From Planctomycetaceae bacterium (GTDB taxonomy: Bacteria > Planctomycetota > Planctomycetia > Pirellulales > Thermoguttaceae), in assembly GCA_015062085.1 (NCBI GenBank), contig SUVI01000103.1, positions 1 through 15,658 on the forward strand: a stretch of DNA of 15,658 nt, in the 5' to 3' direction. A model generated the notes under the pieces. That model did no database searches and was not told the DNA's origin. It saw nothing but the letters and a program-made list of their open reading frames with translations. Shown one piece after another: positions 1,108 through 15,658 of this stretch; the stretch's first letter is position 1, and the number at the start of each line of letters is the position of its first letter. The position numbers and the translations under genes were made by a program.

Positions 1108-3468
1108 TCAGCGCCGTCTTGCTTTCGACTTGCCTTTCGTCGAAACTTCGATCGAGTAGCTCGAATAGTACGGACGGTATTTTCCGAAGCTCACGCCGTT
1201 GAGTACCGTTCCGATGAGCGGAATGTCGACCATTCGGATACGCTCGCAGGCTTCGTAAACGAGCGGGATCCGGCTGACATCGCGCAGAACGGAGAGGATC
1301 ACGCCGTCGCACAGACGTCCCATCACCAGCACGTCGGCGTCGGTCAGGACCGGTCCGGAGTCCACGATGATGAAGTCGAACTGCTCGCGGAGCAGACGCA
1401 TCGGCTCTTCCATGTCCCCCTGCGCCAGTGCGATAATGGCGTCCGGGTGCGGCGTACCGGCCGGAATGATCCAGAGATTCTCAACGCGCGTCGTCGTGAT
1501 GACTTCGTCAAGCGAGACTTTCTTGCGCAGGTACTCGGCAAGACCCGGGTTCAGCGGACGGTCGAACATACGGTGGGACGACGGACGGCGAAGGTCGACG
1601 TCCACCAGGATGACGCGGCGTCCCGTACGGGCCAAACTTGCAGCGAGCTGGCTGGAAACCGTCGTTTTGCCCTCTTTTTCGAGCGAACTCGTCAGAAGGA
1701 CGGCCTTCATGTTGTCGGCTTCAGCACGGTGAAGGAGCGCGGTCCTGATATTGTCGATCGACTCCATCAAAAGCCCCTGAATGCTCTGATTCACGCGATT
1801 ACGGTGTACACCGCGGGAAATGAGCGGCAGGTCGCCCATGACGTGGATCCCCAACCCGTAGCTGAGTTCGTCGGAAGAGTTGACGCGTCGTCCGAGGAAG
1901 TCAAAACCGCTGACGGCGATGATCGTCCCAACGAAAGTCATGAGGCCCAGGAAAGCCATCGTCTGGTACTTAATGGCCTGATTGTTGTGACGCGGCGCTT
2001 CCGGCTCGGTGATCGTTTCGACACGCGGTCCAGCCTGCGCTTCGACCTTCCACTCGTCCAACTGCGTTCCCATTCGGTTATACATGGAATCCATGCGGTC
2101 CAGCTCGCTTCGGAGACTCTGAAGTTCCGTCGTCTCACCGGAAGTCTTTGCTTTCGCGAGTTCGGCCTGGTAGGATTTCTCGCAAGATTCGTATTCCGCC
2201 TGATAGACAGCCAGTTCGATCTTGAGCGATTCGATCGTCTCGGCGAGTTTCTCCGCACGGGACATCGGGACCTCCTCATTGTCGATCTTTGCCTGGACGA
2301 GTTTGGCGATCTCCGGAGTCAAACGCTTTGTCACAGCCGCGATCTGCGCGTTGCATTCTTCCAGCGCCTGCTCCAAACGCTTGATGTTCGGATGATTCGG
2401 ATCCATCGCGACAGAGCGTTCCCGTTCCAACAGCGCCTGAATGTTTTCGTACTGCATCCGCAGTTCCTTGATCGTTGGATTCTCATTCAGAGCCTGCACT
2501 GTAAGCGATCGGATGAGATTCGCACGCTGCTGGATCCTCAGATTTTCACGCTCTTCACGGGTCGCCCCCTGTTCTTCCGGCGCCATTGCTTCGAGAAAGG
2601 CAGAGCGTTTCTTGATCTCCATCGTCAGACCGTTGATGCGAGCGAGGTTCATGTCGCGCTGCTGACGCCAGTGCGCCAGGTTCTCCTGCGCAAAACGGTT
2701 CGAGTACATCGCGTTCTTCGAATCACTGACCCCAAGACGGTCTGCAAGGTTCTGGTACTGGATCTCCTTGCGCTGCTTCATTTTTCCGAGATGATTGTAG
2801 GCACGCTCCAGGTTGTTTCGCTTCTGCGTTTCCAAATCACGTTCGACCTGCACGATCTCTTTCATGTACGAGTCTCGAACGGCGGTGAGGATCTTGACCA
2901 GTTCGTCGCGGTCTTCCCCGCTGATGGAGATCTGGAGGATCTCCGAGCCGGTGTATCCGACGGTCAGGTGCGTCGCCAGCCAGTGTACTTTGTCCGGTTC
3001 GTCACGGAGACACTTGAGTTTCGAAATGCCGGGCATCTGCAAGGCCGGACCAAGCACGATGTTGCTTCGGATGAGCGTTGCCTGCGCGTTCCGGTCGTTC
3101 AGGTAGTGTTTTTCCGAGGGAAGTTTGAAAAGGATGTACTGACGGTCTTCCGCAAAACGGAGCATGACCTTCGCGTTGTATTCCACCGGAATGGCAAGGT
3201 ACGCGATGAGGATCACGACCGTAGTGAAAAAGAATCCAAGCACCATGCTCAGCACCCATCGTCGACGGAGAGCAAACACAAAGTCTGTCGGCCGGATCGA
3301 ACGATTGATGATGTCGGGCTGTTTTTTGTAGGTCTGAAGTTCACGAAATCCCCCCGCGCGGCGCGAAACGGCAAGTTCACGTCCCTGAGGATTCACTTCT
3401 GCGGGAAGCTGGTTGAAGTTTTGTTCCACTTTTGCACCTGTTTTGTCTGTGGTTGAATGATTCAACAA
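1108..3468 (-). CDS. Polysaccharide chain-length determinant / BY-type tyrosine autokinase (Wzc-like)
   Basis: This 786-residue protein has the Wzz-BY-kinase architecture. It has a cytoplasmic N-terminus, TM1 at about 71-93, an extracytoplasmic region about 95-500 rich in coiled coil (about 205-475), TM2 at about 503-521, and a cytoplasmic ATPase. The kinase has Walker A at 593-603 (K601 in EKEGKTT), Walker A' at 619-629 (ILVDVDLRRP) and Walker B at 699-706 (IIVDSGP). A C-terminal Tyr cluster (Y764, Y767, Y768, Y771) is the usual autophosphorylation tail. Family members control polymerisation and export of surface polysaccharide. An exosortase gene lies 249 bp upstream on the same strand. The start is uncertain: the longest frame begins with TTG at 3468 with no clear Shine-Dalgarno site, while a GTG at 3429 (residue 14) has an AGG 7 nt upstream. 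The first Met inside the frame (M75) falls within TM1 and is too late. The family assignment is solid; the polysaccharide is unknown. Confidence 0.88.
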   Translation of the reverse strand: MLNHSTTDKTGAKVEQNFNQLPAEVNPQGRELAVSRRAGGFRELQTYKKQPDIINRSIRPTDFVFALRRRWVLSMVLGFFFTTVVILIAYLAIPVEYNAKVMLRFAEDRQYILFKLPSEKHYLNDRNAQATLIRSNIVLGPALQMPGISKLKCLRDEPDKVHWLATHLTVGYTGSEILQISISGEDRDELVKILTAVRDSYMKEIVQVERDLETQKRNNLERAYNHLGKMKQRKEIQYQNLADRLGVSDSKNAMYSNRFAQENLAHWRQQRDMNLARINGLTMEIKKRSAFLEAMAPEEQGATREERENLRIQQRANLIRSLTVQALNENPTIKELRMQYENIQALLERERSVAMDPNHPNIKRLEQALEECNAQIAAVTKRLTPEIAKLVQAKIDNEEVPMSRAEKLAETIESLKIELAVYQAEYESCEKSYQAELAKAKTSGETTELQSLRSELDRMDSMYNRMGTQLDEWKVEAQAGPRVETITEPEAPRHNNQAIKYQTMAFLGLMTFVGTIIAVSGFDFLGRRVNSSDELSYGLGIHVMGDLPLISRGVHRNRVNQSIQGLLMESIDNIRTALLHRAEADNMKAVLLTSSLEKEGKTTVSSQLAASLARTGRRVILVDVDLRRPSSHRMFDRPLNPGLAEYLRKKVSLDEVITTTRVENLWIIPAGTPHPDAIIALAQGDMEEPMRLLREQFDFIIVDSGPVLTDADVLVMGRLCDGVILSVLRDVSRIPLVYEACERIRMVDIPLIGTVLNGVSFGKYRPYYSSYSIEVSTKGKSKARRR

Positions 3469-3717
3469 AAATTTTCTGTCGGAACACCGCCCCCGTTTTC
3501 CTGCACGGGAGCGAGCCGTTCTTTCCGGAAACTCCTTTCTAGAAACTCCGTCAGAACGGCGATCTGCTCATGCCAGCCGGATGAAACTGCGCATCATGCG
3601 GCCTTCATCTTCTGTACATTACGCAAATTTATTCAAAAAGGTTTTCTTTGAATGTTTTTTTATGTGTTTTGGAGCACCCCATTCCGGAAACTTGTCCGGT
3701 CCGGACGTTTTTCGTTC

Positions 3718-4668
3718 TTAGTCCTGGATCGTTTTTCTGTCCTTCCAGAACACTTCCTTCGGGTTCTCGATCATGTCCAGCTGTGTGGGTCCGTCGTCTT
3801 CCACAAAAATGTTGGAAAGGATCCACTGGAGAAGGACGAGGAATCCGATCGCCAGCGGGACCATGCAGAGTCCGGCACCGTCATGTACGAGTTTTTTCAG
3901 CGTCTCGCTTTCCGGGAACAAGAAGATGACCATTCCCGTAACGACGATACGCACGATGTTCGTCAAAAGCGCGATCGGGATCGCCATGAGCAGAATGATG
4001 ATGTTTTCCCACCACTCACGCTCGTTGATCAGGATCAGCGAGATGGAAAGGGCAAGGAAGATGGTCGTCATCTTCAAACCGCTGCACTGTTCCACGATAT
4101 TGATCTGACTTGTGCCGATACTGATGGTGATCCCGTCCTGAAAGACCGGAAAACCAACGACCTGAAGCACGAATGTACTCGCAGTGGTCGCGAAACGCTG
4201 CATCGGAACGAGCAGCTGCTGTGTTGCTGTATGCGGCAGCGGAAACATGAAAAGAAGCAGAAACGCGATCGGTCCCGCCCATCGGAGCATCGAAGTGCCG
4301 CCGACAAGAAGGATCAGGCCGACAAACGCAATGACGAACGTGTACATGTCCCCCGTCTCGAAGGAAGACATGAAAACACGAAGCAGCGATGCCGCGAGGA
4401 TGATCCCCGCCCCGGCAAGCTGTTCTTTTCCGGTACTAGGGCGCAGCGGCTGACGGCGCATGTACAAAATGACGGCCGCAAGGATCGGGATCAGATACCC
4501 GTGGGAGTAGAGCTCGTTCGAACTCCATTCTACCATCGCACTCTCGAACATATTCCAGTATGCGTAGACCAGCAGGAGAATAAAAGCTCCCGTGATCCCC
4601 CACAAAAACCATTCTTTCGTGCTCTTTTCGGCCGGTACATTTTCCTGTACGGATTCATTGTTGCTCAT
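3718..4668 (-). CDS. Exosortase/archaeosortase family transpeptidase
   Basis: This is a 316-residue polytopic membrane protein with about eight hydrophobic segments. The exosortase catalytic residues are all visible: Cys195 in EQCSGL, Arg240 in TNIVRI and His262 in VHDGAG. It also has the usual YSHGYL motif (54-59) and a Pro-containing FPLP loop (142-145). Exosortases recognise C-terminal sorting tails (PEP-CTERM type) and cleave them at the membrane, usually in bacteria that make exopolysaccharide. No target protein with such a tail is in the window. The ATG at 4668 is supported by AGGA 7 nt upstream. No EpsI-type extra domain is fused, as the C-terminus ends soon after the last membrane segment. 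The Wzc-like gene follows on the same strand and probably belongs to the same system, although the 249-bp gap may hold its own promoter. Confidence 0.9.
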   Translation of the reverse strand: MSNNESVQENVPAEKSTKEWFLWGITGAFILLLVYAYWNMFESAMVEWSSNELYSHGYLIPILAAVILYMRRQPLRPSTGKEQLAGAGIILAASLLRVFMSSFETGDMYTFVIAFVGLILLVGGTSMLRWAGPIAFLLLFMFPLPHTATQQLLVPMQRFATTASTFVLQVVGFPVFQDGITISIGTSQINIVEQCSGLKMTTIFLALSISLILINEREWWENIIILLMAIPIALLTNIVRIVVTGMVIFLFPESETLKKLVHDGAGLCMVPLAIGFLVLLQWILSNIFVEDDGPTQLDMIENPKEVFWKDRKTIQD

Positions 4669-5649: not shown

Positions 5650-8517
5650 ATGCCTAACACAGAAGAAAACACGAATGTCAAAATGACCCCCATGATGAAG
5701 CAGTATTTCGAGGCCAAAAAAGCCTGTCCGGATGCGCTTCTTCTTTTTCGAATGGGCGATTTCTACGAAATGTTCCACACGGACGCACGTCTTGGAGCGC
5801 GGGTACTGAATCTCGCACTGACAAGCCGGGAAAAAGGCGAAAACGCGATGCCAATGGCTGGTTTTCCGCATCATCAGCTGGAAGCGTACGTCGGAAAGCT
5901 GATCGAAAACGGATACCGCGTCGCAGTGTGTGATCAAATGGAGGATCCGAAACAGGCGAAGGGGATCGTGAAGCGCGAAGTAACTCGTGTCGTGACGCCG
6001 GGGACTCTGACGGAAGATTTTCTCCTGGATCCCAAGGAGAGCAATTACCTTGCCTCCGCGGTCATCGATGAAGCATGCGTCGGTCTTTCGTGGGTGGATC
6101 TGTCGACCGGAAGGTTCTTTGCTGCAGGATTTCCGCGGACCCGGCTCTACGATCAGCTGGCGCGGATCATGCCGTCCGAATGCCTGATCTGCGAAAAAGA
6201 AAAACTGCCGGATTGGGTCATGAACAAAATGATGGTCACACGGCGCCCGGATTGGGCCTCGGGACTGAATTTCACGCTAAAAAAGCTGACGGACCATTTC
6301 CGCGTCATGAATCTGAACGGTTTCGGTTTCGATCTCCAGGTCCCGGAAGACAAACAGGCGATCCGTGCCGCGGGCATGATCTTGGACTACCTGAGCGAAA
6401 CGCAGAAAGCATCGCTCGAACACATCGACTCGCTCCGTTCTTACCGTACCGGAGAAACGCTGGAGATCGACGAATCGAGCCGGCGGAGTCTTGAGATCTC
6501 CCGAACGATGCGGGAAGGCAAACGAGACGGATCGCTTCTCGCGGCGCTCGACTGTGCGGTGACGTCGATGGGGTCGCGTATGCTTGCTGACTGGGTCGCC
6601 AATCCGCTGACGAGCAAAAAACTGATCGAACTTCGGCAAAATGCAGTCGCAGAGCTCATGCAGGATCCGAATGTCTGTCAGGAACTCCGTAAAAATCTTC
6701 GCGGGATCTACGACCTAGAGCGTCTCTTGACTCGCGTGGCGACCAGACGTGCCAATCCGCGCGACCTTTACGCCATAGGTCAGACCCTCACCATGCTCCC
6801 TGAGATCCGAAAGCTGATCCAGAAAATGAAAAGTCCGCTGATCGTCAGGATCAACGGTGAGATCGATTTCTGTCCAGAGCTGACAAAGATGATCTCAGCA
6901 GCGATCATTGACGATCCGCCGCTCCAGATCACTGAAGGCGGCGTCATCCGGCCCGGATATTCGGAACAGCTGGACGAACTGCGAAACGCAGCACACGGAG
7001 GCCGGGAGTGGATCACGAATTACCAGGCGAAGATCCAGGCGGAGACCGGGATCCAGAATCTGAAGGTCGGATACAACAAAGTGTTCGGTTTCTATCTGGA
7101 AGTGAACCGATCTCAGGAGGAAAAGATCCCCGAAAACTTCATTCGGAAACAGACCGTCAAAAATGCAGAGCGCTTCATCACTCCGGAATTAAAAGAGCAC
7201 GAGGAATTCGTCCTTTCCGCAGATGAACGGCAAAAAGAACTGGAGTACCAGCTTTTCTCGGAACTTCGGGAACTCACCCTCCAGTACCGTCAGCGCATGA
7301 GCGTGACCGCCGGAGTTCTCGCGGAACTGGACGTTCTGCTCGCATTTGCAGAAACTGCGAGGCAGCGAAACTACTGCCGGCCGGAGATCACGGAAGAAAA
7401 CGAGCTGGAGATCCTCGACGGACGCCATCCTGTGCTCGACATGGTGACGCCGGACGGAGATTTTGTGCCAAACGACGTCGTGTGCGATGAACTGCGGGGC
7501 AAGATCCTCCTGATCACGGGGCCGAATATGTCCGGAAAAAGCACGTATATTCGGCAGGTCGCTCTTCTGACGCTCATGGCGCAGATCGGGAGTTTCATTC
7601 CGGCACGCGAAGCAAAGATCGGCATCGTGGACCGGATCTTTACGCGGGTCGGTGCGAGCGATGAACTGGCGCGCGGTCAGAGTACCTTTATGGTCGAAAT
7701 GACCGAGACGGCCAGGATCCTGAACATGGCGACGGAAAAGAGTCTCGTGATCCTGGACGAGATCGGACGCGGAACGAGCACCTACGACGGCATCTCCCTG
7801 GCCTGGGCCATCATCGAGTATCTGCACGAGAAGATCCGATGCCGGACTCTTTTTGCGACACACTATCACGAACTGACGGACCTTTCCAAAACGTTCCGGA
7901 ACATCCGAAATCTAAACGTTGCCGTCCGTGAATGGAACGACGAAGTAGTCTTTCTTCACAAAATCATCGAGGGGGCTGCTGACCGAAGTTACGGGATCCA
8001 CGTCGCGCGTCTTGCCGGAGTGCCGTCCGAAGTCCTTGAACGCGCCTCGCAGCTGCTGCTTCAAATGGAAGAACGCCAGGCCGAACTGCTCGCGAACGAA
8101 AAAAGACTAACGGAAGGCTCCGATGATGAACTTCCACAAAACTCAGAACTCCCACAAAACTCAGAACTTCCACAAAACTCAGAACTTCCACAAAACTCAG
8201 AACTTCCACAAAACTCAGAACTTCCACAAAACTCAGAACTCCCACAAAACTCAGAACTCCCGAAAAACTTCGAGCAAAAGCGAACGGATGCTTCAGAAAA
8301 AGAAGATGCCGTCCGCCCCCGTGCGCCTCTGCGTACTTTGGATCCCCAAAAAGTCCGTCCCAAAGTTCCGTGCAACATTCAGTACCTCATGTTTGACCCC
8401 AAAGACCCGCCGATCATCGAAGAACTGAAGTCGCTGAACCTCAATACGATGACGCCGATCGAAGCATTCCAGACACTGCTGAGATGGCGAGAGTCCGTCC
8501 AGCAGGATCCGCGGTAA
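5650..8517 (+). CDS. mutS: DNA mismatch repair protein MutS
   Basis: MutS recognises mismatches and, as an ATPase clamp, recruits MutL. The protein has 955 residues from the ATG at 5650. The mismatch-reading F-x-E is F38-Y39-E40 in GDFYEMF. The connector, lever and clamp domains follow. The ATPase has Walker A GPNMSGKST (624-632, K630) and Walker B LVILDEIGRGTST (699-711, D703-E704), then ATHYHEL. It ends with the usual C-terminal helical segment (TPIEAFQTLL). The odd part is residues 827-874, where the linker between ATPase and C-terminal domain carries eight ELPQNS-like repeats from an 18-bp minisatellite, making the protein longer than a typical MutS of about 850-880 residues. The start is uncertain because no Shine-Dalgarno site is visible. 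The frame extends back to a TTG at 5578, but those residues do not look like MutS; an ATG at 5684 (MTPMMKQYF) also begins where many MutS proteins do. No mutL is nearby. Confidence 0.95.
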   Translation: MPNTEENTNVKMTPMMKQYFEAKKACPDALLLFRMGDFYEMFHTDARLGARVLNLALTSREKGENAMPMAGFPHHQLEAYVGKLIENGYRVAVCDQMEDPKQAKGIVKREVTRVVTPGTLTEDFLLDPKESNYLASAVIDEACVGLSWVDLSTGRFFAAGFPRTRLYDQLARIMPSECLICEKEKLPDWVMNKMMVTRRPDWASGLNFTLKKLTDHFRVMNLNGFGFDLQVPEDKQAIRAAGMILDYLSETQKASLEHIDSLRSYRTGETLEIDESSRRSLEISRTMREGKRDGSLLAALDCAVTSMGSRMLADWVANPLTSKKLIELRQNAVAELMQDPNVCQELRKNLRGIYDLERLLTRVATRRANPRDLYAIGQTLTMLPEIRKLIQKMKSPLIVRINGEIDFCPELTKMISAAIIDDPPLQITEGGVIRPGYSEQLDELRNAAHGGREWITNYQAKIQAETGIQNLKVGYNKVFGFYLEVNRSQEEKIPENFIRKQTVKNAERFITPELKEHEEFVLSADERQKELEYQLFSELRELTLQYRQRMSVTAGVLAELDVLLAFAETARQRNYCRPEITEENELEILDGRHPVLDMVTPDGDFVPNDVVCDELRGKILLITGPNMSGKSTYIRQVALLTLMAQIGSFIPAREAKIGIVDRIFTRVGASDELARGQSTFMVEMTETARILNMATEKSLVILDEIGRGTSTYDGISLAWAIIEYLHEKIRCRTLFATHYHELTDLSKTFRNIRNLNVAVREWNDEVVFLHKIIEGAADRSYGIHVARLAGVPSEVLERASQLLLQMEERQAELLANEKRLTEGSDDELPQNSELPQNSELPQNSELPQNSELPQNSELPQNSELPQNSELPKNFEQKRTDASEKEDAVRPRAPLRTLDPQKVRPKVPCNIQYLMFDPKDPPIIEELKSLNLNTMTPIEAFQTLLRWRESVQQDPR
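8128..8271 (+). repeat. 18-bp tandem repeat (8 units) inside mutS
   Basis: There are eight head-to-tail copies of an 18-bp unit of the form GAACTTCCACAAAACTCA, starting at 8128, 8146, 8164, 8182, 8200, 8218, 8236 and 8254. The first seven encode ELPQNS exactly; units 2 and 7 differ only by a silent T-to-C change (CTT/CTC). The eighth is degenerate (ELPKNF). The unit is a multiple of three, so copy-number change would keep the frame. The near-identity of the copies suggests recent expansion. Confidence 0.97.
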
Positions 8518-12031: not shown

Positions 12032-13615
12032 TCAATCCCGTTTCATGTTCCAGAAAACATGGCGAACCAGATCACCGAGTTTTTGTCCAACTTTTTGACC
12101 TCTGGGATCTTCAAAAATCTCTTCCACGGCATCCCAGAGAATATTTTTTTGTTTTGGATTCCTTTTCTCCCACCCCTGCCCCTGAGGACCATTCCCCAAA
12201 GGACGGCCGCTCACCGGAGGAGCACCAACGGGATTGCCGTTCACCGGAGGAACACCGACAGGATTACCGCTCACCGGAGGAACACCGACAGGATTACCGC
12301 TCACCGGAGGAACACCAACGGGATTGCCGCTCACCGGAGGAGCACCAACGGGATTGCCGCTCACCGGAGGAGCACCGACGGGCCTACCGTTGACCGGGCC
12401 TCGCTGACCTGAGGTCGTGCCAATTGGCCAGCCGTTGACCGGGCCGCTCTGACCTGCGGGCATACCAATTGGCCAGCCGCTGACCGGGCCGCTCTGACCT
12501 GCGGGCGTACCAATTGGCCAGCCGCTGACCGGGCCGCTCTGACCTGCGGGCGTACCAGTTGGCCAGCCGTTGACCGGGCCGCTCTGACCTGCGGGCGTAC
12601 CAGTTGGCCAGCCGTTGACCGAGCCGCTCTGACCTGCGGGCGTACCGACAGGCGGAGAGCCGCCGTCATTCGATGGCTGGTTTATCGGCGCCTGTTTATT
12701 GGCAAGCGCCTGCACAAATTCCTCGCACGTTGGGAAACGTGATTCCCGCTCCTTGGCCATTCCTTTCAAAAGGGCCTCATTAACGGCCGATTCCAGCCCT
12801 GGGACCCATTCAGGGGCTTCATTCAGCACACACTCGCGCAGGGTCTGATCGTCATCTGTCTCAAACGGCAAATGGCCTGCAAGCAGCTCGTAGGCAACGA
12901 CGGCAAGTGAGTACTGGTCGGAAAACGCATTTTGAAGCCGTCCGCGAAACTGTTCCGGACTCATGTACGAACGCGTTCCGCTAGTCGGCATTCGGATCTG
13001 AGAAACGCGCGACATACTCCGCCGAAACTCCGCCGCCAGACCGAAATCGATGAGCTGAACGTCTTTCAGTTCCTCAAAGTTCAGAGACCCGTCGGAGTTT
13101 CTGGCAAAATCAAGCATAATGTTGGCCGGTTTGACATCGCGGTGAACGACCTCTTGCTGATGCGCATAGTCGAGAGCCTTCGCGACCGGCTCCAAAATTT
13201 TCGTGACCCACTCCAGCGGCAGTTTCTGCTTGCGGCGCAAAAGAAATTCCAGACTGACGCCCTTCAGAAATTTCATCACGAGATACGCACCAAAATCATC
13301 ATGCTGATGCATTCCGTAAACCGGGCAAATGTTAGAGTGCTGAAGCGCATGGATCGTCTGAAACGTCTTGCGAACGCGTTCCATTTCCGAATCAAAATTC
13401 TGAATATCACGAGGCACGAACTTGATGGCAACGTCACGTTCCCCGTCTAGGTCACGAGCTTTCCAGACCTCCCCCAAACCGCCGCGTCCGATTTTTTCTT
13501 CAAGCCGCCAACCGTCAAATTCCGTACCGGGAGCATATACGGCCGTCCCATTTTTCTGATCTTGCGACCCAATGGTCGGTCGCGACGGTTCACACTGGAA
13601 GAATTCTTCGGACAT
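12032..13615 (-). CDS. Soluble Ser/Thr protein kinase with tandem-repeat Pro/Gly tail
   Basis: This 527-residue protein has a Hanks-type kinase domain at about 37-305. It shows the Gly-rich loop GRGGLGEV (43-50), VAIK (K65), HRDVKPAN (158-165, catalytic D160), DFG (190-192) and YMSPEQ (217-222, the APE equivalent), so it should be active. Residues 324-413 are six 15-residue repeats and 414-473 six 10-residue repeats, rich in Pro, Gly and Val. The last 50 residues are charged and return to ordinary composition (WDAVEEIFEDP). There is no transmembrane segment or extracellular sensor domain, unlike many PknB-type kinases, so it is probably cytosolic. The ATG at 13615 follows a strong AGGAGAGG site. 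It has its own candidate promoter at 13669-13697, just after the pheA terminator. Its substrates and signal are unknown. Confidence 0.92.
   Translation of the reverse strand: MSEEFFQCEPSRPTIGSQDQKNGTAVYAPGTEFDGWRLEEKIGRGGLGEVWKARDLDGERDVAIKFVPRDIQNFDSEMERVRKTFQTIHALQHSNICPVYGMHQHDDFGAYLVMKFLKGVSLEFLLRRKQKLPLEWVTKILEPVAKALDYAHQQEVVHRDVKPANIMLDFARNSDGSLNFEELKDVQLIDFGLAAEFRRSMSRVSQIRMPTSGTRSYMSPEQFRGRLQNAFSDQYSLAVVAYELLAGHLPFETDDDQTLRECVLNEAPEWVPGLESAVNEALLKGMAKERESRFPTCEEFVQALANKQAPINQPSNDGGSPPVGTPAGQSGSVNGWPTGTPAGQSGPVNGWPTGTPAGQSGPVSGWPIGTPAGQSGPVSGWPIGMPAGQSGPVNGWPIGTTSGQRGPVNGRPVGAPPVSGNPVGAPPVSGNPVGVPPVSGNPVGVPPVSGNPVGVPPVNGNPVGAPPVSGRPLGNGPQGQGWEKRNPKQKNILWDAVEEIFEDPRGQKVGQKLGDLVRHVFWNMKRD
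12197..12376 (-). repeat. 30-bp tandem repeat (6 units) encoding GAPPVSGNPV-like decapeptides
   Basis: Six contiguous 30-bp units encode residues 414-473 of the kinase, of the form G-[AV]-P-P-V-[SN]-G-[NR]-P-[VL]. Two neighbouring copies are identical at the DNA level, pointing to recent duplication. All copies keep the frame. Confidence 0.95.
12377..12646 (-). repeat. 45-bp tandem repeat (6 units) encoding GTPAGQSGPVNGWPI-like units
   Basis: Six contiguous 45-bp units encode residues 324-413 of the kinase. The first five are nearly identical and the sixth (GTTSGQRGPVNGRPV) is diverged, at the border with the 30-bp array. Variation is mostly S/N and T/I swaps at fixed positions. Confidence 0.95.
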
Positions 13616-13790: not shown

Positions 13791-14861
13791 CTAACGGCTC
13801 ATCTCCGTGTAGCAGCCCAAGTAACGATACGATTCCGCCTGACACGAGATCTCATTCAGGATCTTCGTCACACGCTCCTCCGTTCCGTCCGCGGCAAAAT
13901 CAATGAAGAACGCATAGTTCCCCTGCTCGGTCGGCACCGATGTGACGCGCGTCAGATTGATCTCCGCCTCTGCGAACATCTTCATTGCCGAGAAAAGCAT
14001 TCCCGGACGATCCGGCATCGTAAACGTGACAGAGCAGCGGTTTCCGCCTTCCTCCTGCGGATTCCGGGCAAGGATGAGAAAACGCGTGCGCGTGTTGCGT
14101 GCATCTGCGATCCCTATCTTCAAAACCTCCAGATTATAGTAGCGCGCCGCAAGTTCACTCGCGATCGCAGCCGCTCCCTCTTCCCACGTTTCCGCAAGCA
14201 TCTTCGCAGCGCCGGCAGTATCGTAGTACGCGACCGGCTGGAGTTTCATCAGATCCACGAACGTCTGGCATTCCGTCAGTGCCGCCTGCTGCGAGTATAC
14301 CTTCCGAAGCGTCCGATGGTCCGTCCCAGGCACGATCAGAAGCGCATGCTCGACCGACATTTCGACAGCTCCAACGATGAAAAGCTGACTCGCAAGCAAA
14401 TGCGCGTTGATCTGGCTCACGATACCGCCGACCGTGTTCTCGATCGGCACGATACCGTAATCGTAGGAACCGATCTTCACCCCTTCAAAAACTTCTTCGA
14501 CCGTCTGACACGGGATCGGCGCAAGGTCACTGTTCCACTTGCGCGCCGCAACTTCACTAAATGCACCATGCTCACCCTGAAACGCGATCAGCGGCTTTCC
14601 TTCCGACTGAAGCCGCTTGCTTTCCTTGAAGATCGTCCGGTAGATCTCTTCGATGACTTCCGCAGAAAGAAGCGAACGTTCACGTCCCTTCAAGCTCTCA
14701 AGGATCTGAAGTTCACGTTCCGGCACATTCACGTTTTGATGCTGCTCACGCTTGAATTTCACAACAAGACGCGCAACCTCCAAACGTTTCTGAAGCATCT
14801 GAAGGATCGAATTGTCCAACCGGTCGATCTCATGACGAAGAGACTGCAGGTTCAGGTCCAT
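13791..14861 (-). CDS. pheA: Bifunctional chorismate mutase / prephenate dehydratase (P-protein)
   Basis: It converts chorismate to prephenate and then to phenylpyruvate, the committed steps to Phe. The 356-residue protein has three domains. AroQ-type chorismate mutase (1-85) has R9, R26, K35 and R49-E50 in the places of the E. coli active-site Arg, Arg, Lys and Arg-Glu residues. Prephenate dehydratase (90-268) begins AFQGEHGAFSE, has VPIENTVGG (138-146) and the catalytic TRF motif (259-261). The ACT domain (275-350) is diverged at both Phe-binding motifs: PGMLF (286-290) replaces the usual PGALY/V, and TSVP (307-310) stands where most have ESRP. The ATG at 14861 has AAGGA 8 nt upstream. It is preceded by a leader with an attenuator-like structure and followed by a terminator, so it is probably a single-gene transcript. 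Confidence 0.95.
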   Translation of the reverse strand: MDLNLQSLRHEIDRLDNSILQMLQKRLEVARLVVKFKREQHQNVNVPERELQILESLKGRERSLLSAEVIEEIYRTIFKESKRLQSEGKPLIAFQGEHGAFSEVAARKWNSDLAPIPCQTVEEVFEGVKIGSYDYGIVPIENTVGGIVSQINAHLLASQLFIVGAVEMSVEHALLIVPGTDHRTLRKVYSQQAALTECQTFVDLMKLQPVAYYDTAGAAKMLAETWEEGAAAIASELAARYYNLEVLKIGIADARNTRTRFLILARNPQEEGGNRCSVTFTMPDRPGMLFSAMKMFAEAEINLTRVTSVPTEQGNYAFFIDFAADGTEERVTKILNEISCQAESYRYLGCYTEMSR

Positions 14862-14931
14862 GGTCTGATTCCTTTTCTAGTTTCCTTTTGAATTTTCAAA
14901 TTTTATATCTTCTACTGATGAAAAATCCAAC

Positions 14932-14964
14932 AAAAAAAGCCCCCGGACTCTTCACCGACGGCTT
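14932..14964 (-). terminator. Attenuator terminator in the pheA leader
   Basis: On the minus strand, AGCCGTCGG (14955-14963) pairs with CCGGGGGCT (14938-14946) with one mismatch and one G-U, across an 8-nt loop, followed at once by seven T (14932-14938). It lies 70 nt upstream of the pheA start and downstream of the leader promoter, so it would stop pheA transcripts early unless disrupted. No full-length gene ends here. Confidence 0.75.
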
Positions 14965-15003
14965 GGATCTTTCATTTTGAAACTTTGAAAAACGGAACCG
15001 CCG
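14956..15003 (-). promoter_or_regulatory. Possible antiterminator pairing
   Basis: The minus-strand segment CGGCGGUU (14996-15003) can form 8 pairs, two of them G-U, with AGCCGUCG (14956-14963), which is the 5' arm of the attenuator terminator. The two structures exclude each other. This pairing was found by eye and its stability has not been calculated. Confidence 0.4.
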
Positions 15004-15012
15004 CGATTTGAA

Positions 15013-15061
15013 GGAAACGCCGGGTCCGAAACAACAATACAGTCCGGACTTCAGCGTTTCC
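15013..15061 (-). promoter_or_regulatory. Leader hairpin containing the leader-peptide stop codon
   Basis: On the minus strand, GGAAACGC (15054-15061) pairs perfectly with GCGTTTCC (15013-15020). After a small internal loop, GTCCG (15045-15049) pairs with CGGAC (15024-15028) around a 16-nt loop. The leader ORF stop (15051-15053) lies in the 5' arm, so a ribosome on the last codons would block this hairpin. Confidence 0.65.
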
Positions 15062-15125
15062 CGGTAAACGAGAAATACGCGAAGCAGTACTGAAAGCCAT
15101 AAATTTTCACAATTTGATTTTTCAT
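15051..15125 (-). CDS. Putative Phe/Tyr-rich leader peptide of pheA
   Basis: This 24-codon ORF runs from an ATG at 15125 to a TGA at 15053-15051. Residues 9-20 read YGFQYCFAYFSF: four Phe and three Tyr within twelve codons, which is far above chance for a short AT-rich ORF. It lies between a strong promoter and an intrinsic terminator upstream of pheA, as expected for a translated attenuator sensor; the E. coli pheA leader peptide is likewise Phe-rich. No Shine-Dalgarno site is visible, and the predicted transcript start (about 15128) is only about 3 nt before the ATG, so translation may be leaderless. It could be a chance ORF, but the position and composition together argue against that. Confidence 0.65.
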   Translation of the reverse strand: MKNQIVKIYGFQYCFAYFSFTGKR

Positions 15126-15134
15126 AATACACAA

Positions 15135-15162
15135 ATTCTACTACTTTTTGCTTTTTTGTCAA
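15135..15162 (-). promoter_or_regulatory. Promoter of the pheA leader transcript
   Basis: On the minus strand, a perfect TTGACA (15157-15162) and TAGAAT (15135-15140) are separated by 16 bp. This is the best -35/-10 pair in the window. Transcription should start near 15128, giving a leader of about 267 nt before pheA. Confidence 0.75.
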
Positions 15163-15260: not shown

Positions 15261-15658
15261 CTAAAAAATCGAAGCGATCTCCGAATACGATGCCGCAAAA
15301 AGGATCGAACGGATCACGTCATCAAGCCGTTCAAGATCCGTAACCTTCTGAAGCCTCTCTCGTTCCGACTCCGTGAATTCTTCCGGAAACTTCGATTCAA
15401 GAAGCATTGAGATCGTTTTGAAACGGCCTTCCGCAAGACCTTTTGCAAGACCTTTTGCAAGACCTTCTTCACGGCCTTCCTCAAGACCTTCCGCAAGACC
15501 TTCCGCGTGCCCCTGCTGAAAGCCTTGGTCGAGTGCGTATTCAAGATGAGCGGCTTCGTCGCGGATGGCTTTTTCGCGGGCAATGGCGAGTTCACGGCGG
15601 CGCTCGTCGCGAGTGAAGCGCGAGTAGATCTGGTGCGTCTGTTTCAACCCCGGCGTGC
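15261..15658 (-). CDS. C-terminal part of Rpn-family nuclease / putative transposase (5' end outside window)
   Basis: The frame is open from the window edge (15658) to a TAG at 15263-15261. A TTG at 15647 is the first possible start inside the window, but the frame continues upstream of it, and the pattern is that of the tail of a longer protein. It has a Lys/Arg/Glu-rich helix followed by nine Gly at every fourth residue (G42 to G74 counted from the TTG codon) in EGLAKGLAEG-type repeats, then a DUF4351-like helical end (LLESKFPEEF, then two helices). This tail is typical of Rpn (PD-(D/E)XK recombination-promoting nuclease) proteins, which often occur in many copies. The nuclease domain itself cannot be seen here, so the assignment rests on the C-terminus. 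Confidence 0.7.
   Translation of the reverse strand, partial: TPGLKQTHQIYSRFTRDERRRELAIAREKAIRDEAAHLEYALDQGFQQGHAEGLAEGLEEGREEGLAKGLAKGLAEGRFKTISMLLESKFPEEFTESERERLQKVTDLERLDDVIRSILFAASYSEIASIF
15426..15524 (-). repeat. 12-bp periodic repeat coding for Gly-x-x-x tetrads in the Rpn-type tail
   Basis: The codons for nine Gly at every fourth residue form an imperfect 12-bp tandem array. Two neighbouring units (15439-15450 and 15451-15462) are identical on the DNA level. This periodicity is common in the C-terminal tails of this family and its copy number tends to vary. Confidence 0.85.

Follow-up and report, generated by a model that had tools for sequence, protein, structure and literature searches.

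The his attenuator of Salmonella is composed of six RNA segments (A-F), and since this number is even, it is the stalled ribosome that must cover the first of them. Escherichia coli pheL-pheA, like pheST, trpL and hisL, combines a residue-rich leader peptide with alternative hairpins and an intrinsic terminator (PMC11802643). In Corynebacterium glutamicum, the aroR leader in front of the DAHP synthase gene aroF contains Phe and Tyr codons in a Phe-Tyr-Phe stretch and responds to Phe limitation (parts of PMC11802643 and PMC4046766). The uORFC-13-1 motif of Acholeplasma consists of a predicted promoter, a short ORF with at least one Phe codon, an adjacent terminator and aroF; the section of PMC8632094 on this motif describes no helix relay. 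For aroF of E. coli and Shewanella, an attenuator sensing Tyr-tRNA was put forward as a hypothesis (parts of PMC2659441 and PMC8632094). According to PMC2965389 (2010), Proteobacteria and Actinobacteria were the only groups with known leader peptide systems until the Firmicutes case treated there. Short leader genes in Planctomycetes are counted in a part of PMC4833913, the subject of which is reinitiation at short distances. Among the matches listed from the open-access literature, we found no report of a planctomycete leader-peptide attenuator, in agreement with the initial annotation of the DNA studied here.

That DNA, referred to as the window, is a stretch of 15,658 nucleotides which carries pheA. 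Judging from sequence and computed folds, we propose that pheA is controlled by a ribosome-mediated transcription attenuator which responds to the amount of charged Phe- and Tyr-tRNA available. To this explanation as a whole, including a relay of five RNA segments and descent from leaders of aroF, we assign a probability of roughly 0.68. The putative attenuator shares its target gene with pheL and differs from it in the mixture of Phe and Tyr codons, in having five segments instead of four, in a nearly leaderless ORF and in its phylum. As had been claimed, the peptide resembles that of E. coli in composition only. The nearest known systems are C. glutamicum aroR and the Acholeplasma aroF uORF, which come from other phyla. 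The aroR leader shares its Phe/Tyr codons and its position before a DAHP synthase gene with the planctomycete aroF leaders described below, which contain longer Phe/Tyr/Trp runs, whereas the window leader precedes pheA. The attenuator hypothesized for E. coli and Shewanella likewise concerns DAHP synthase and an aromatic tRNA, in Proteobacteria. A relay of more than four segments is shared with Salmonella his; with the odd count proposed for the window, however, covering the first segment would fall to a ribosome that has reached the stop codon.

The earlier assignment of the window to a likely planctomycete was supported by a scan of genome contigs for pheA, from which the best 80 of 416 loci were taken. 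The seven closest of these (PheA 63-96% identical) all belong to metagenome-assembled genomes (MAGs) with the label Thermoguttaceae or Planctomycetia; three of these MAGs come from deer or goat gut. Several unrelated features of the window were recorded as well. An exosortase gene adjoins a large ORF with an AAA/ParA-type ATPase domain (1108-4668, minus strand), an arrangement which we take to be typical of polysaccharide export clusters. MutS contains about eight copies of an in-frame 18-bp repeat (ELPQNS) near its C terminus (8128-8269), and a serine/threonine kinase gene has tandem repeats of 30 bp and 45 bp after the kinase domain (12200-12646, minus strand). The ORF upstream of the leader (15261-15647, minus strand) contains 12-bp tandem repeats of GLAEG type at 15427-15506 and matches Yae1_N weakly, below cut-off.

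The promoter, the 24-codon Phe/Tyr ORF, the stop-codon hairpin, the terminator and pheA, all reported initially, were recovered on the minus strand. The parts up to the control region, together with the gene, are as follows:

15157..15162, minus strand: -35 box TTGACA, the same hexamer in all five pheA leaders and in two aroF leaders of relatives (L004, L119).
15135..15140, minus strand: -10 box TAGAAT, separated from the leader ATG by 8-9 nt in each of the five pheA leaders.
15128, minus strand: predicted transcription start (A), placed 3 nt upstream of the leader ATG by the spacing from the -10 box.
15051..15125, minus strand: leader ORF of 24 codons, MKNQIVKIYGFQYCFAYFSFTGKR*, with length and aromatic columns kept in all five leaders.
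15066..15101, minus strand: control region, codons 9-20, aromatic at 9, 11, 13, 15, 17, 18 and 20 (sequence and leader alignment).
13791..14861, minus strand: pheA, encoding a bifunctional chorismate mutase-prephenate dehydratase with an ACT domain (domain matches; start at 14861).

The promoter has a 16-nt spacer and 11 of 12 consensus bases. Since the -10 box lies so close to the leader ATG in all five species, the transcript probably begins about 3 nt before the ATG, making the leader ORF nearly leaderless; leaderless leader ORFs have been described in Streptomyces lividans (in a part of PMC8079986). All aromatic residues of the window peptide (four Phe and three Tyr) fall within residues 9-20. 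Downstream, a hairpin of -26.1 kcal/mol (15062-15013, minus strand) contains the stop codon within its 5' arm, and the terminator arms (14964-14955 and 14946-14937, minus strand) are followed by a U-run reaching 14932. This terminator was absent from the list produced by a simple terminator scan of the window, probably because of a mismatch in its stem.

The fold of the window leader alone is unremarkable (z -1.43; 14 of 200 shuffles fold as well), and the case for more than chance therefore rests on conservation. The set of pheA leaders consists of five sequences, two of them nearly alike: the window and the relatives L001, L002, L003 and L007, whose PheA proteins are 76-96% identical to that of the window and whose pheA genes have no aroF in front. 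When the upstream regions were aligned, as had been suggested, all leader parts, including the aromatic codons and the terminator, were found in all four of these relatives. Each of the five peptides has 24 residues, and there are no indels in the ORF. Columns 9, 11, 13, 15, 17, 18 and 20 are aromatic in every peptide; Phe is invariant at columns 11, 15 and 20, Phe and Tyr exchange (TTY-TAY) at columns 9, 13, 17 and 18, and Trp is absent from all five. Divergence of the ORF is greater at second than at third codon positions in eight of ten species pairs and equal in the other two. This is the reverse of ordinary coding sequence and appears to be what selection for 'Phe or Tyr' would leave. Two general hallmarks of an attenuator, an ORF with clustered codons for the products of the pathway and a terminator before the structural gene, are both present in the sequence. 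The element is very probably a leader-peptide attenuator. We regard leader attenuation as such as highly likely, consider charged Phe- and Tyr-tRNA, read through translation of the leader, to be well-supported candidate signals, and expect that read-through upon Phe or Tyr starvation is the likely response.

The initial annotation described two hairpins working by proteobacterial logic. The conservation above upholds attenuation that senses Phe and Tyr through translation of the leader, whereas the four-arm layout fits less well, as S1 lies after the last Phe codon, S2:S4 is weaker than S3:S4 in all five species and there is an extra segment S3. The segments and the elements beyond them are:

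15042..15062, minus strand: segment S1, comprising the ORF end, the stop codon and GTCCGGAC (folding, pair tables).
15013..15032, minus strand: segment S2, partner of S1 or S3 (folding, shuffles, pair tables).
14993..15006, minus strand: segment S3, partner of S2 or S4 (folding, shuffles, pair tables).
14951..14964, minus strand: segment S4, terminator 5' arm and loop edge, partner of S3 or S5 (folding, shuffles, pair tables).
14937..14946, minus strand: segment S5, terminator 3' arm (folding, RNAalifold).
14932..14938, minus strand: U-run of the intrinsic terminator (sequence).
14920..14930, minus strand: 3' arm of an outer inverted repeat, TTGGATTTTTC, pairing with 14973-14963 across the U-run and carrying a second short U-run.

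Four hairpins, S1:S2, S2:S3, S3:S4 and S4:S5, each fold in all five species, neighbouring ones being mutually exclusive. The five segments appear to fit the RNA better than four, with S1:S2 and S3:S4 predicted to go with read-through and S2:S3 and S4:S5 with termination. In every species S1:S2 (-15.8 to -27.1) is stronger than S2:S3 (-11.8 to -16.2), and S3:S4 (-15.9 to -19.3) is stronger than S4:S5 (-11.8 to -16.6). The S3:S4 pairing survives sequence changes, with three pair types at S4 +7 (A-U, G-C, G-U; n=5) and at +10 (n=4). Compared with dinucleotide shuffles of the S3 stretch, p values for the window, L001, L002, L003 and L007 were 0.05, 0.07, 0.003, 0.09 and 0.016 for S3:S4, and 0.045, 0.041, 0.056, 0.040 and 0.036 for S2:S3; these values come from five related leaders and are not independent, and the segment borders were drawn after the folds had been seen. 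Such a modest excess over shuffles (p 0.003 to 0.09) lends support to the helices rather than proof. As for the covarying stems that the initial annotation suggested looking for, two-sided changes were present in 5 of 34 pairs, but the covariation energy given by RNAalifold for the five sequences was only -0.04; its chosen structure was S1:S2 plus the terminator with the outer stem. The outer inverted repeat retains seven of its ten pairs in all five leaders and three in three of five, and is possibly a back-up terminator or a processing stem.

The position of the ribosome is central to the proposed relay. S1 starts with codon 22, downstream of all Phe codons, and in a masking computation it was free with the A site at codons 9-17, nearly free at codon 18, about half covered at codon 20 and covered with the ribosome at the stop codon. 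With S1 downstream of the aromatic codons, it is the ribosome at the stop codon, and not a stalled one, that would cause termination. Translation would start at once on an RNA beginning about 3 nt before the AUG. If Phe or Tyr were short, the ribosome would halt at one of codons 9-20, upstream of S1; S1 would pair with S2, leaving S3 free to take S4, the terminator 5' arm, and RNA polymerase would read into pheA. If both amino acids were plentiful, the ribosome would reach the UGA and cover S1, including its inner GUYCG helix, whereupon S2 would take S3, S4 would pair with S5, and transcription would stop. A point against this relay is that a ribosome at codon 20 would cover part of S1.

Folding the leader with the ribosome masked, another check proposed at the outset, showed switching in the window and an uneven picture in the relatives. 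In the window, computed terminator pairing was 0.02 with no ribosome, 0.01-0.07 with stalling at codons 9-20 and 0.76 with the ribosome at the stop. In L007, stalling at codons 13-18 gave 0.03-0.04, that is read-through, and the stop state reached only 0.35. In L001, masking the stop moved S2 from S1 (0.83) to S3 (0.82), and the terminator won at equilibrium in eight of nine states (not at codon 15). In L002 and L003, S2 preferred S3 over S1 when no ribosome was present (0.55 vs 0.09 and 0.76 vs 0.03, respectively) and turned to S1 (0.73-0.83) with codons 13-18 occupied; the terminator won in nine of nine equilibrium states. When the stop was masked before S5 had been made, upstream pairing of S4 still amounted to 0.83, 0.05, 0.90, 0.43 and 0.72 in the window, L001, L002, L003 and L007. 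Given this unevenness at equilibrium, the relay would need kinetics in part of the species, with S3:S4 forming first and holding. An untranslated leader was computed to be ON at equilibrium for the window and L007 only; in E. coli, by contrast, it is OFF. An antiterminator helix is found in all five leaders, and its computed dependence on ribosome position is clear for the window and uneven elsewhere. This dependence is the weakest part of the five-segment model. Because of the no-ribosome states of the relatives, we hold the five-segment order with the stop-codon ribosome as switch to be only slightly better than an even bet.

An RNA model, R1, was built from the pheA leaders only and searched against 119 genomes of the family. 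It matched the four known pheA leaders and one new leader, L119, situated before aroF and encoding the peptide MKMSALLDYRFYYWFAFLFSSER; the match was full-length, with E 9.5e-5 for one genome in the search of 119. Thirteen further full-length matches in these genomes were by appearance ordinary terminators or chance, and partial matches were mostly to the terminator alone. The leader of L004, which encodes MKISVANNFRFYYSYSFLFTR before aroF-pheA, was missed by R1 and is tied to the pheA leaders by peptide, promoter spacing and S3:S4 only. In these two aroF leaders, with borders chosen after folding, S3:S4 exceeded shuffles (p = 0.002 in L119, p = 0.009 in L004), S2:S4 did not (p = 0.82 and p = 0.13), and S1:S2 was supported in L119 (p 0.027) and not in L004 (p 0.28).

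These values bear on the strongest rival, a classical four-segment attenuator of the E. coli pheL/trpL type, in which stalling of the ribosome masks arm 1 and lets arm 2 pair directly with the 5' arm of the terminator, and an untranslated leader forms the terminator. The ingredients would be the same (leader peptide, stop-codon hairpin, terminator), a 6-bp match (CCGGCG x CGUCGG) between S2 and S4 does exist, the terminator forms without a ribosome in the computed folds of L002 and L003, and the invariant Phe codon 20 is placed where a ribosome would cover about half of S1. However, S2:S4 reaches only -9.9 to -13.0 in the five pheA leaders and is beaten by S3:S4 (-14.1 to -19.1 in this comparison) in each of them, just as S3:S4 and not S2:S4 exceeds shuffles in L119 and L004, and most aromatic codons lie too far upstream for a ribosome to cover S1. 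Direct S1:S4 and S2:S4 antiterminators were both weighed and set aside as weaker. We consider the four-segment scheme unlikely, though a good deal less so than the two explanations that follow.

Conserved RNA hairpins could also mean that a ligand or protein acts on the 5' UTR, as in a riboswitch, a T-box or a site for an RNA-binding protein, and that the ORF is incidental, yet seven aromatic codons are fixed in all five leaders despite TTY-TAY swaps, the ORF has no indels, and many aroF leaders also hold aromatic ORFs. An Rfam search gave no match at gathering score; relaxing the limit to E 10 gave eight matches, the best with E 0.19, and no T-box or leader-peptide family was among them. Control without translation is accordingly very improbable. 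Equally far-fetched is the notion that the terminator is a constant brake or part of the upstream transcription unit and that the leader no longer regulates: it finds some backing in a similar terminator after a tRNA-Leu gene and before obgE in genome G004, and is opposed by the near-consensus promoter between the upstream ORF and the leader, conserved together with the ORF in all five species, and by the retained alternative pairing of the terminator arm. The terminator in G004 is much like that of pheA (CAAGCCGTCGG..CCGGCGGCTTTTTTTGTTG; L118 1926-2064), and a similar place was noticed in G007 (L128).

Returning to attenuation by leader translation, we scanned aroF upstream regions for short ORFs (10-50 codons) that contain five or more aromatic residues, making up 20% or more of the peptide, and that have a terminator at least as stable as -12 kcal/mol downstream. 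aroF (TIGR01361) scored above cut-off in 74 of 119 family genomes; of its 76 places, 75 upstream regions were scanned, one at a contig edge being omitted. Aromatic leaders with terminators preceded aroF in 50 of 75 family loci, in 17 of 20 order loci, which were hand-selected for matches beginning no earlier than query residue 12 (the N-terminally extended aroF type; one region had only 242 nt), and in 3 of 30 phylum loci, which were the best-scoring places and not a random draw. A second aroF type in the order had such a leader in 0 of 26 loci by the same scan, giving 70 of 151 in all. Under the same limits, the reverse strand yielded 0 in each set, and dinucleotide shuffles (five rounds) a mean of 0.4 in the family and 0 in the others. 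With other limits, from loose to strict, 47, 44 and 42 of 72 family regions qualified; the reverse strand contributed 7, 2 and 2, and shuffled sequences 1.95, 0.8 and 0.0. Peptides such as MSRSYTYFWFYFCPPGRGTGGSL and MKTFAFTFAYYYYFTPPRA are typical, and Trp occurs in 47 of 70. One aroF leader (L142, 1018-1110) contains eight consecutive Tyr codons, MDFGFLFTRYYYYYYYYRFMSDMSRLRFVA.

In many of these aroF leaders the part of the ORF that follows the aromatic run pairs with the terminator 5' arm (mean -22.5, compared with -15.4 when tails were shuffled and -18.2, sd 6.4, when they were exchanged between loci), and 38 of 70 tails beat all 20 of their own shuffles. Leaders with a pairing tail would act as a three-segment switch, whose parity matches that of the five-segment relay; the remaining 32 of 70, with tails that do not beat all 20 shuffles, may function differently. 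Comparable leaders were found neither for Trp before PF04715 genes (TrpE/PabB type; 0 of 30 best-scoring loci) nor for His before hisG (0 of 30 best-scoring loci). Trp- or aromatic-rich short ORFs before class II DAHP synthase genes overlap the preceding gene out of frame and were rejected as leaders; in L357, the overlapped gene is mannose-1-phosphate guanylyltransferase-like.

Finally, we considered how such a leader could have come to stand before pheA. Of the seven closest loci (among the best 80 of 416), L004, L005 and L006 have aroF directly before pheA, the arrangement of the sister genomes G005-G007. No TIGR01361-type aroF was found in the lineage of the window (G001-G004, incomplete MAGs), where the only PF00793 protein of G003 is a KDO8P synthase. 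Class II DAHP synthase is present in all eight genomes, G001-G004 included, and G001 has a gene of TrpE/PabB type. L005 showed no convincing leader before aroF-pheA, which suggests that leaders may disappear or escape recognition; in L006, the contig stops short of the leader position. A distant second pheA paralogue was noticed in the relatives' genomes (L088, L089, L090 and L097), in G003 directly after kdsB. The window leader may descend from the aroF leaders of the order, left before pheA upon loss of aroF. The simplest history, from leader-aroF through leader-aroF-pheA to loss of aroF, seems to us somewhat more probable than its alternatives taken together. The suggestion of the initial annotation that the leader arose independently holds in so far as its nearest relatives found are planctomycete aroF leaders and no Rfam match reached gathering score.

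We tentatively put forward a broader view, for which we would give not quite even odds, that leader-peptide attenuation arose in Planctomycetota on its own, with DAHP synthase as its main target and with Phe, Tyr and often Trp codons read together. An odd number of segments would make the ribosome at the stop codon, not the stalled one, the trigger and would leave an untranslated leader ON. In a lineage that has gut members, the switch of three segments would have become a five-segment relay, inherited by pheA when aroF was lost. The strongest surprise is the aromatic aroF leaders across the order with their putative odd-segment logic, of which the window leader would be one derived case. Leader-peptide attenuation would then be widespread in an order of Planctomycetota, with DAHP synthase as its target in most of the family loci tested and pheA in one lineage, and would illustrate how switches of this type originate and pass from one gene to another. 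The odd-segment design leads to a prediction for the untranslated leader opposite to that for E. coli, and attenuation of this kind would imply close coupling of transcription and translation in these planctomycetes.
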